37,578 nt of DNA from a virus: positions 1-37,578 of the IMG/VR virus record IMGVR_UViG_3300027971_000109; one strand, written 5' to 3'. The translations under genes were made by a program, and so were the position numbers. The notes below the pieces were generated by a model. That model saw nothing but the letters and a program-made list of their open reading frames with translations. It had not been told where the DNA came from and searched no databases. Positions within the stretch are counted from its first letter, which is position 1; every line of letters starts with the position of its first letter. Positions 34,488-37,553 of this stretch are shown here, piece by piece.

Positions 34488-35143
34488 CATCGCTCCTTAT
34501 GAAATTCACATTTTTTAACTGGACACCAACCACATAATCCAGTAGGGTTAGCAATCCACAAATTATTATCAAAAGATATTTCTAGTCTTTTCAAATCACC
34601 TAAAAAGTAATCCCATAATTTATCAATATCTTTTACATCATATTCCTCTGGCATAAAACTATCATGCATAACGAATAACAAACCAGCTTTAATTTTCTTT
34701 ACTTCAGGAAAATGTATAAACGTCATGATTGCCATTAACTTCAATTGCTTTGGGTCTGGGTATTTATTACTCCCAGTTTTGTAGTCAATTATGTAGGCAG
34801 TATCACCATCTATAATTAATAAGTCTATTATACCTCGAACCCACCTATCTTTAGAATCAAAGTTACATATTTTTCTGTCATAAGTAATGGCTAATTCATG
34901 CTCAGGGTATTTCGTTCCTTCAATTGCTAGTAAACTATCTAACACCGCTTTAAATCTTCGGTAGTTTTTCTCTAGTGGTTTACTTTCTTTTACATAATCT
35001 TCACATGCTTTATGAACTTCTAAACCATACAACATCTGTTCTGTTTGTTTTTTCTCGTAGTTCTTTAATACTTTTATCTCATGATATTGTCTAGGACAGT
35101 TTAGATATTCTTTTAAAGAAGAGTAAGACCAAGTAAATTTCAT
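34487..35143 (-). CDS. PD-(D/E)XK nuclease, Cas4/RecB-like with four cysteines
   Basis: This 218-aa protein shows the PDDEXK_1 order: SYSSLKEYLNCPRQY, YGLEVHKACEDY (H44), HELAI (E83), VRGIIDLLII (D107), AYIIDYKTGS (D120, K122) and QLKLMA (Q133). C16 near the N terminus and C204-x2-C207-x4-C212 at the C terminus stand where Cas4 and AddB-type nucleases bind an iron-sulfur cluster. It probably processes DNA ends during replication or recombination as an exonuclease. No Cas1 or CRISPR array is near. It starts in an ATGA overlap with the HTH gene before it and is coupled to the HNH-like gene after it. Confidence 0.92.
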   Translation of the reverse strand: MKFTWSYSSLKEYLNCPRQYHEIKVLKNYEKKQTEQMLYGLEVHKACEDYVKESKPLEKNYRRFKAVLDSLLAIEGTKYPEHELAITYDRKICNFDSKDRWVRGIIDLLIIDGDTAYIIDYKTGSNKYPDPKQLKLMAIMTFIHFPEVKKIKAGLLFVMHDSFMPEEYDVKDIDKLWDYFLGDLKRLEISFDNNLWIANPTGLCGWCPVKKCEFHKER

Positions 35144-35361
35144 AGTAAGTCGTCCATAGAAGAAACATTATACCTAGCTAAAAGTTTTTTACGCACATTT
35201 TCCTTTGCCCTTTTTTCTATATTAACTACTGTAGCGCGGCTAATATCTAAAGCTTTTGATACTTCTTCCTGCGTCATGTCAGATTCCTCACTAATCATTT
35301 GCAAGTGTTCACTTTGTGACAGCCATTTACTTATGTATTTTTTAAACTCAAAGTCATTCAT
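35140..35361 (-). CDS. Small HTH protein resembling sigma-70 region 4
   Basis: This 73-aa protein contains DMTQEEVSKALDISRATVVN followed by IEKRAKENVRKKLLARY (residues 28-64). The TQEEVSKALDIS-ATVVNIEKRA-E-VRKKL pattern is that of sigma factor region 4, which contacts the -35 box, although XRE-like HTHs look similar. It has no region 2, so it cannot act as a full sigma factor; it could be an activator that redirects host RNA polymerase or an ordinary regulator. The ATG lies 8 bases inside the preceding gene. Its position amid tiny early-type genes supports a regulatory role. Confidence 0.78.
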   Translation of the reverse strand: MNDFEFKKYISKWLSQSEHLQMISEESDMTQEEVSKALDISRATVVNIEKRAKENVRKKLLARYNVSSMDDLL

Positions 35362-35917: not shown

Positions 35918-36177
35918 TTCTTTCCTTTCGTTGCTTTAATGGCTACGGGTGTTGCTTGTTCGGCAACAATTTTTGATTCTCTATGTAATTCCATTGCCTC
36001 TGCGGATAAATCTTCTAACTGTTTTGAATATATGTCCATCATTTCAGCACAACCCCACAACGGGCTACTATATGCGTTGTCTGAAACGTTCTCAGCAACT
36101 AACTCAATAATTGCCTTAATTGAATCCATCCGAAAACTTACCGCTTCAATCTTATTTGCTAAATCCCAATAACTCAT
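35914..36177 (-). CDS. Small helical phage protein
   Basis: This 87-aa protein (MSYWDLANKIEAVSFRMDSI, KAIIELVAENVSDNAYSSPL, WGCAEMMDIYSKQLEDLSAE) is predicted to be three helices with a basic Ala-rich tail (KATKGKK). The layout, K-E-V-F-M-S---IELVAE then W-CAEM, resembles a diffuse class of phage proteins in which two helices are joined by an N/S-rich loop; no named function. I place the start at 36177: GGGGGGAG lies a few bases before it and the preceding microprotein stop overlaps it by one base. The frame extends 12 codons further up without its own ribosome site. Confidence 0.78.
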   Translation of the reverse strand: MSYWDLANKIEAVSFRMDSIKAIIELVAENVSDNAYSSPLWGCAEMMDIYSKQLEDLSAEAMELHRESKIVAEQATPVAIKATKGKK

Positions 36178-36251
36178 CACTCCCCCCTGTAGATAAATAA
36201 AATTAAAAAACACACAACTAATATAGAACCGATAACATATTCTTCCACCAT
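36177..36251 (-). CDS. 24-residue single-pass membrane peptide
   Basis: The frame begins ATG with AGGGGGAAGT just upstream and encodes MVEEYVIGSILVVCFLILFI ending YRGE. Residues 6-20 are an uninterrupted hydrophobic helix, with acid at the N terminus and Arg after it. Its TGA shares one base with the ATG of the next gene (TGATG), a clear coupling. It is the first gene after the 373-bp control region, so it is probably the first product of this operon. Function is unknown. Tiny phage membrane peptides can act on host membrane enzymes or in lysis control, but nothing here decides. Confidence 0.6.
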   Translation of the reverse strand: MVEEYVIGSILVVCFLILFIYRGE

Positions 36252-36266
36252 ACTTCCCCCTAAAAT

Positions 36267-36311
36267 TGATACCTATAAGTTAAAAAATAGACTACAAAAT
36301 GATACCTATAA
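36267..36311. repeat. Pair of 12-bp direct repeats, 33 bp apart
   Basis: TGATACCTATAA occurs at 36267-36278 and again at 36300-36311; on the leftward strand it reads TTATAGGTATCA. The 33-bp spacing, about three helical turns, puts both copies on one face of the DNA. The nearer copy ends 16 bases upstream of the membrane peptide start, so these look like operator sites or extended -10 elements. Confidence 0.75.
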
Positions 36312-36337
36312 TGCACAAAAACGATAACGGATGTACA

Positions 36338-36361
36338 AAATGTGTAACAAACCACACATTT
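36338..36361. promoter_or_regulatory. Inverted repeat, 8-bp arms
   Basis: AAATGTGT, 8-base spacer AACAAACC, ACACATTT: perfect arms. It lies about 90 bases upstream of the first gene of the leftward operon. Candidate operator for a dimeric regulator; no T tract, so not a terminator. Confidence 0.6.
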
Positions 36362-36380
36362 ATTCAAAATTCATGAATAC

Positions 36381-36532
36381 CGAATGACTCATAAATGAAT
36401 CCTTAACCCACTTAATGCTCAACTTATGAATCATTACCGTTCGGTAATTAAACCCATTCTTACACCCGAATACACCCAATATTCCCGAATGATAAATAAA
36501 CTGCACTTTAAACCACTTAACACTCAATATAT
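36381..36532. repeat. 47-bp imperfect direct repeat, copies 105 bp apart
   Basis: Copies at 36381-36427 and 36486-36532 agree at 33 of 47 positions without a gap. Best blocks are CGAATGA, ATAAA, CCACTTAA and CTCAA. The offset of 105 bp is ten helical turns. A 16-bp palindrome (36433-36448) lies between the copies. Confidence 0.65.
36433..36448. promoter_or_regulatory. 16-bp palindrome, candidate operator
   Basis: ATTACCG-TT-CGGTAAT has perfect 7-bp arms around two bases. Its half-site CGGTAAT is close to the CCGAAT/ATTCGG motif repeated three times nearby. It suits binding by a small dimeric HTH protein such as those at 30918 or 35140; no direct link is shown. Confidence 0.65.
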
Positions 36533-36567
36533 TCCCTATCGGGAAACCCTAACTTTTTGTAGGGTTT
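36532..36567. promoter_or_regulatory. Overlapping hairpins downstream of the 241-aa gene
   Basis: TTCCC-TATC-GGGAA (36532-36545) shares bases with AAACCCTA-ACTTTTTG-TAGGGTTT (36544-36567; perfect 8-bp arms). The two cannot form at once, so they could switch. They lie 58-93 bases past the stop of the leftward 241-aa gene, but no T run follows on that strand, so termination would need another factor. Confidence 0.55.
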
Positions 36568-36624
36568 GTAACTACTTGTTAGAAAATCGTACTGTTTTTT
36601 CCTTTTTGTCATTTTTCACAGGCT

Positions 36625-37350
36625 TTAGCCAGTATATGGACACTTCGCTTTTTCTTTAAACTTATTTAAAATTTTGTTTGAGTTAATAAAAGAACAATTT
36701 AAACCTATTGACTTCCTGCCTCTCATTTCTTGCTCTGAGATTAAGTGGTTAACAAATTTAATTTTCCCATCATACATTGGGGTCATATGTACCATTGGCT
36801 GACCGGCTTTAACAAAAATGTTTCTTGCTCTCATAATATTGAGCGCAAAATTTATGTTAGTATCTGACTGGTTATAGTAATCTACAACTCCCGGAAGTAT
36901 TATGATGTCATCAAGGGTTTCAGAGTTATATGTTGGTTGAGACCATACCCATTTGATGGATTTTTTACAGCTTAAAAACCAAGGTGATTGTATTTTTAAA
37001 TGTGCAAACTTATCTACAGGTAAAAAATCTCCTCGTTGCTCGGATGGATGTAAATCTATTTCTGTTAGTGAATCCGAAAACTGCCACCTGTAGCTTGCAT
37101 CGGGAGATACTTGAATTGCCAAGTCAGACCACATAGGTATAGTGTATGAATACTTATATAGATTTAATAACCCAGTACAAGTTTTCATTGTTGGTCTTGA
37201 AAAAAAGTCTATCTTCATTTCTTTTGGTATTGTATGCCACCAATCGGGCATATGTTTTAAGGATGTTTCAATTGGGAATGCCTCGTATACTGTTGCATAC
37301 TGAGTAAAACAATCCAACACTATTTCTTTTTCTTTAAATTTAAATATCAT
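36625..37350 (-). CDS. Conserved phage protein of unknown function, beta-rich
   Basis: This 241-aa protein has W-rich blocks: DWWHTIPKEMK, TCTGLLNLYKYSYTIPMWSD, DLHPSEQRGDFLP, HLKIQSPWFLSCKK, WVWSQPTYNSETLDDIIILP, GVVDYYNQSDTNINFALNIM and KAGQPMVHMTPMYDGKI. The order (C-GL, IP-WSD, H-EQ, K-PW, P-Y, PGVVD-Y, G-P) recalls a family of cyanophage and other phage proteins, and more distantly DUF6065; none has a known job that I can state. It may be a jelly-roll or cupin-like barrel. The C-terminal tail is lysine-rich. It overlaps the gene before it (ATGA) and is followed by the repeat-rich gap. Confidence 0.8.
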   Translation of the reverse strand: MIFKFKEKEIVLDCFTQYATVYEAFPIETSLKHMPDWWHTIPKEMKIDFFSRPTMKTCTGLLNLYKYSYTIPMWSDLAIQVSPDASYRWQFSDSLTEIDLHPSEQRGDFLPVDKFAHLKIQSPWFLSCKKSIKWVWSQPTYNSETLDDIIILPGVVDYYNQSDTNINFALNIMRARNIFVKAGQPMVHMTPMYDGKIKFVNHLISEQEMRGRKSIGLNCSFINSNKILNKFKEKAKCPYTG

Positions 37351-37553
37351 TTTTCACTCGCCTTTTTTAGTATCGCCCGTGCGAAATCTATTTGGTAGTA
37401 GCCCCAGTTTTGGTATGTATTAAACACTTCATTAGCCACTTCCATAATTTCTTCGTTTGTTAGTTCACGCACTACCTTGACCTCAACACCTTCGTCAACC
37501 CTAACGTCATAGCAAGCACAACCACGCTCGGCACAACCCTTTTCTAGTATCAT
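37347..37553 (-). CDS. Small phage protein with N-terminal Cys cluster and FARAI tail
   Basis: This 68-aa protein starts MILEKGCAERGCACYDVRVD with three Cys in eight residues. It goes on VKVVRELTNEEIMEVANEVF and ends QIDFARAILKKASEK. The LTNEEI...FARAI-KK half is a phrase I have seen in many small phage proteins, usually of unknown role. The Cys cluster may bind metal. GGGGGTG lies about 5-11 bases before the ATG. Its stop overlaps the ATG of the 241-aa gene. The gene is close to the right edge, and further leftward genes may lie upstream of it outside the window. Confidence 0.72.
   Translation of the reverse strand: MILEKGCAERGCACYDVRVDEGVEVKVVRELTNEEIMEVANEVFNTYQNWGYYQIDFARAILKKASEK

Follow-up and report, generated by a model that had tools for sequence, protein, structure and literature searches.

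The 373-bp gap at positions 36252 to 36624 of the window (the whole 37,578-nucleotide stretch analysed, virus record IMGVR_UViG_3300027971_000109) is read here, with confidence slightly short of even, as a composite, single-copy, cis-acting region of origin type. Four classes of site are present in the gap, three consisting of palindrome pairs (E, C and A) and one of iterons (D). Together they make up a portable cis element, recognisable by its exact geometry of 33, 31, 49-50 and 20-22 bp, and over 30 contigs of uncultured phages were found to carry it. Should this strip prove to be an origin, it would help in locating origins in uncultured phages.

Position, conservation and repeat content of the gap

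The gap is AT-rich (G+C 33%). Its upstream neighbour is a leftward ORF (36625-37350, minus strand) homologous to phrog_7084, of unknown function, and a second leftward ORF (37347-37553) lies further upstream; thus the gap lies within the leftward arm, a minor correction to an earlier, sequence-only reading that had rightly described a repeat-dense gap upstream of the small genes. Downstream, the ribosome-binding site of a 24-aa membrane-like ORF adjoins an E site of the gap, and beyond this ORF come small genes, a PD-(D/E)XK exonuclease, an SNF2 helicase and a DUF927 primase-helicase. Among the downstream genes, a 73-aa protein (35140-35361, minus strand) has weak matches to phrog_351 and TIGR02937 and resembles sigma-factor region 4 or a small HTH protein; homologs of it are encoded by several E-bearing phages.

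Related contigs were located with a DNA pattern and via two small genes, p99 and p62; these phage records are uncultured fragments, and their gene contexts rest on ORF calls. Six of them have the region, ahead of the same small genes but among differing flanking genes; the repeats are kept in L082, L083, L097, L155 and L100, and in part in L086, in which only about 150 bp of the region remain. The downstream 263 bp or so of the gap are 95% identical to L097 and 93% identical to L082, and the 24-aa ORF is 95.8-100% conserved in L082, L083 and L097. Upstream, p68 abuts the region in L083, L097, L155 and L100; in the window the phrog_7084 homolog is inserted between p68 and the gap, a position from which it is absent in the close relatives. 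At the other end, E immediately precedes the ribosome-binding site of the following gene, which is the 24-aa ORF in the window, L082, L083 and L097, p99 in L155 and another ORF in L086. L082 keeps the gap, with a downstream gene that reads as another ORF of replication type. A DNA search of an annotated phage collection gave no real match to the region, and no prophage relatives of p62 were found in genomes.

No conserved coding frame is present among the relatives, in agreement with the earlier statement that the gap is without convincing genes. The only long frame, of 62 codons on the minus strand, is interrupted in four of seven sequences compared (L083, L097, L100 and L086), and differs between the window and L082 by eight nonsynonymous changes and one synonymous change; a protein-coding gene in the gap was rejected on these grounds. 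A conserved 10-codon mini-ORF (ATGAGTCATTCGGTATTC...) was dropped because nearly all of its differences change amino acids. The sequence-only reading had named loss of the repeats in relatives, or a conserved frame across the gap, as outcomes that would speak against an origin or control region, and neither occurred. No Rfam family (E-value up to 1), tRNA or intrinsic terminator (a G+C-rich stem with a T-run) was found in the gap; the hairpin at 36544-36567 has no T-run and is therefore not a standard terminator. Nor was a sigma-70 promoter (-35/-10 hexamers) found on the minus strand inside 36252-36624.

All of the inverted repeats named earlier are present, at 36338-36361 (with 8-bp arms), 36369-36378, 36433-36448, 36532-36545 and 36544-36567. 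Inverted repeats with arms of at least 6 bp number four in the gap, compared with 1.1 in dinucleotide shuffles (2.7% of which reach four) and 0.48 in other stretches of the window (maximum 2); with arms of at least 7 bp there are three, compared with 0.35 (0.3%). No stretch of equal length sampled in the rest of the window has as many long inverted repeats as the gap. The direct repeats stood up less well: the 23 repeated 7-mers are mildly enriched over shuffles (12.2; 0.7%) but ordinary beside other stretches of the window, 11% of which reach the same level. Three copies of CCGAAT are indeed in the gap, but the window total of eight is that expected by chance (8.6). The most meaningful direct repeat is TGATACCTATA, which occurs twice (36267 and 36300), 33 bp apart. 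The CCGAAT motifs and ATTCATGAAT, which had been stressed, are minor, and it is the phased pairs and iterons that carry the signal.

Site classes and their recurrence in other phages

Class E is the palindrome TTGATACCTATAGGTATCAA, with two sites 33 bp apart; class C is the palindrome GACTCATNNATGAGTC, with a spacing of 31 bp; class A is the palindrome TTCCCGAACGGGAA, with a spacing of 49-50 bp; and class D consists of TTTTGT iterons every 20-22 bp. These spacings are near whole helical turns for E, C and D, with A excepted. The features are listed in the table.

Table. Features of the gap and of the first gene downstream (window positions; the strand given for the whole region is the reading direction of the flanking leftward genes)
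Feature	Position	Strand	Remarks
Conserved noncoding multi-site region	36252..36624	-	No conserved frame; alignments with relatives
24-aa membrane-like ORF MVEEYVIGSILVVCFLILFIYRGE	36177..36251	-	First gene downstream; ATG at 36251; gap directly upstream
E site, gene-proximal (TTGATACCTATAAGTTAAAA)	36266..36285	.	Member of 33-bp pair
E site, distal (ATGATACCTATAATGCACAA)	36299..36318	.	Centre 33 bp from proximal E
D iterons, three TTTTGT(A/G) direct repeats, 20 + 21 bp spacing	36293..36343	-	TTTTGT cores invariant in alignment of the window group (W group); spacing spectrum
TTACACATTTTGTACA conserved block, overlapping the 36338-36361 inverted repeat	36332..36347	-	
ATTCNNGAAT inverted repeat (ATTCATGAAT in the window)	36369..36378	.	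Half-sites kept in relatives
C palindrome, strong copy (GACTCATAAATGAATC)	36386..36401	.	
C palindrome, weak copy (GCTCAACTTATGAATC), 31 bp away	36417..36432	.	31-bp spacing dominates in independent loci
A palindrome (TTACCGTTCGGTAA)	36434..36447	.	
A palindrome (TTCCCTATCGGGAA)	36532..36545	.	Copies 98 bp apart here; 49-50 bp in relatives
Pair of GGGTGTA motifs between the A sites, 10 bp apart	36461..36477	-	Kept in L082, altered in L083
Hairpin AAACCCTA-8nt-TAGGGTTT	36544..36567	.	Near end of upstream gene

Viral contigs were searched with the half site TATAGGTATCAATTT, with no spacing imposed, and scored against the palindrome TTGATACCTATAGGTATCAA; a second viral search, with the E pair itself, added more loci. 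Partner sites lie at exactly 33 bp in 41 instances, and at any other distance in at most 4. About 33 phage contigs were found to carry E, as a rule at a single place in each record. The E pair is at one place in 16 of 20 whole records, at two places in one (G016) and missing in three; since these records were mostly picked for carrying the pair, the informative part of this count is the single place per record. In 33 pair-bearing loci, where about 11% would be expected, matches within 500 bp of E account for 16 of 16 for A, 16 of 16 for C and 10 of 10 for the TTACACATTTTGTACA block (which stands for D in this count), several of the motif definitions having been refined on the same loci used for counting them. 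Least affected by this refinement are the 33-bp spacing spectrum and the mob_myst_A control described below.

Outside the close relatives, C is found near E in L141, L148, L160, L178, L235, L237 and L243, and A in L093, L148, L160, L235 and L237, with a weaker match in L234. Pairs of C sites are 31 bp apart in 13 cases, compared with at most 2 for other spacings. The TTTTGT iterons with a 20-22 bp period are shared by the window group, L092, L132, L141, L235, L237, L247 and L248; other phages have TTTTGTAAAG iterons every 21-22 bp, and the iteron sequence differs between phage groups.

In nine loci (L092, L093, L132, L141, L160, L178, L237, L243 and L247) the region lies between convergent ORFs, several of which are conserved genes (e.g. 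SprT-like and metallophosphoesterase), so that the E pair cannot be a promoter of either neighbour. A SprT-like gene recurs ending at the composite region (L092, L160, L178 and L247), with a metallophosphoesterase gene then in most of these loci. In six others (L115, L142, L147, L159, L171 and L188) the E pair alone lies inside a coding frame and encodes an (E/Q)IDTYKxQNxxQIDTYxYE-like peptide; the genes concerned are mostly of the p68 family, with an IDTYK...IDTYK repeat of 11 residues. The function of a single promoter does not fit these three contexts (convergent, in-frame and before a start codon) and a position-independent cis function does. Thus, a position-independent, origin-like cis site is favoured over an ordinary promoter.

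Palindrome arrays upstream of mobile mystery protein A

Bacteria were scanned for the exact E pair with one genome per species (84,980 species). Twelve contigs were returned, and palindromic sites are present only in L260, a Pseudomonadales MAG; the other 11 of the 12 bacterial contigs, and in general the degenerate-pattern matches without palindromic units (L230, L231, L240-L242 and L246), were set aside as ordinary repeats. L260 has five E-type sites, with successive sites separated by exactly 33 bp, immediately upstream of an operon encoding mobile mystery proteins A (TIGR02612, 144.9 bits against a cut-off of 122.6; an HTH protein) and B (TIGR02613, Fic-type). In about 770 other sampled bacterial genomes the E-type pair is absent. 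A second E-like case upstream of mob_myst_A was found in L306.

As a rule, a palindrome array of about 33-bp period lies upstream of mob_myst_A genes (L260 1172-1800; L281-L312), and the unit sequence of the arrays varies between lineages. At 24 mob_myst_A loci of the same class, 33 is the strongest upstream period in 11, compared with 13 of 960 control windows drawn from the same loci, and a period of 32-34 is strongest in 16, compared with 35 of the 960. The 33-bp period is also present in several of eight plasmid copies of mob_myst_A. No paper describing these arrays was found in the literature searched, within which this is apparently their first report; they make the DNA target of the MobMystA regulator directly testable.

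The phage strip shares with the arrays a palindromic E unit and the exact 33-bp period of L260, but has two sites rather than five, is flanked by other site classes, is located in some phages within coding sequence or between convergent genes, and is accompanied by neither mob_myst_A nor mob_myst_B: no protein of the window and 19 related records exceeds the TIGR02612 or TIGR02613 cut-off. As mob_myst_A operator units are diverse, the match to the E sequence by itself may be a coincidence; with unit and spacing matching together, a binder of a common kind is plausible, short of proof.

Candidate functions of the region

The sites are observed, as are their spacing, conservation, clustering and lack of dependence on gene context; from these we infer protein binding, unwinding, replication start and regulation. 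Several DNA-binding proteins would dock on the phased iterons (D) and the tandem palindromes (A, C and E), and would bend and open the AT-rich DNA, as in iteron origins; they would also load the replication machinery, and the overlapping palindromes would let regulators time the start of replication. In this phage, the regulators would also time expression of the small leftward genes, the ribosome-binding site of which adjoins E. The gap resembles iteron-type origins (the phage lambda ori with its O-protein iterons, and iteron plasmids) in its phased direct repeats, AT-richness and single copy, but adds three tandem-palindrome classes, and no matching initiator gene was found. Origins such as that of lambda may lie inside coding sequence.

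Points for the origin-type reading are the AT-richness, the occurrence of the region usually at one place per genome, its independence of promoter context, and phased direct repeats in the window group and in other phages. The proposal of an origin or master control region is thus borne out in part: recurrence, convergent settings and iterons with a 20-22-bp period argue for a cis site of origin type, but GC skew, which had been suggested as a check, follows gene strand and has no sign change at the gap. A shared initiator was not found in a comparison that covered the DUF927 primase-helicase of the window, which is present in only 2 of 22 records, these being fragments. The differing gene downstream of the gap in L082, and the six loci with E alone in a coding frame, also count against an origin.

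The gap could instead be a multi-operator promoter. The tandem palindromes would then be occupied cooperatively by regulators, one or more of them supplied by the host, that turn the operon of small genes and replication genes on or off, in the way that some phages are controlled by CtrA or LexA of the host. This would suit the location of E in the window group, immediately ahead of the ribosome-binding site of the next gene, whichever that is, and the match of E to the operator arrays upstream of mob_myst_A. E is more like bacterial promoter operators than like any origin. The NrdR consensus differs in sequence from E, and E is not upstream of ribonucleotide reductase genes (that of L169 ends toward the pair). 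A pair of palindromes about three helical turns apart is a feature shared with NrdR boxes, and suits cooperative repressors of this kind (PMC12051234). There is also precedent in the LPEG phages of alphaproteobacteria, the intergenic gaps of which are dense in host CtrA sites, with binding shown by experiment (PMC9437464). The present gap is likewise large, intergenic and crowded with sites of regulator type, and is found in different gene contexts, but it is without a CtrA motif, has several site classes with 31/33/50/21-bp phasing, and is known here from its sequence. Given the nine loci between convergent ORFs, the six with E in coding frames, and the lack of a minus-strand sigma-70 type promoter inside the gap and of any HTH gene common to the E-bearing records, a multi-operator promoter is plausible but doubtful, and ranks second to the origin. 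The origin and operator readings may both hold at once.

Two further possibilities follow from the bacterial arrays. The strip could be a docking site of many uncultured phages, usually present once per genome, with one of its phased sites mimicking the sequence and 33-bp geometry of mobile mystery A/B operators; the phages would in this way use or neutralise the host regulator of a mobile Fic module without encoding it. This is considered unlikely. Still less probable is that E pairs serve as decoys or sensors, titrating or engaging host MobMystA-like HTH regulators of a Fic protein wherever they are placed. Such a role is consistent with the five-site array of L260 and the similar L306, with the lack of both mob_myst genes in the phages and with the position-independence of E, including inside genes; but one pair per genome, the usual number, is weak for titration, the pair is confined to one of the sampled bacterial genomes, a single match among many widely varying arrays could be coincidence, and A, C and D are left unexplained. 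Binding of MobMystA-type regulators to the phage E sites, if it occurs, would link these phages to a poorly understood Fic module.

A decayed gene or plain intergenic DNA, with chance repeats, would account for the near-background levels of short direct repeats and CCGAAT, but is very improbable considering the 93-95% identity to L082 and L097 despite broken frames and the recurrence of exact spacings in unrelated contexts. With regard to the hosts of these phages, the small genes beside the region in L236, L238, L115 and L092 are presumably phasin-like, and may point to bacteria that store polyhydroxyalkanoate.
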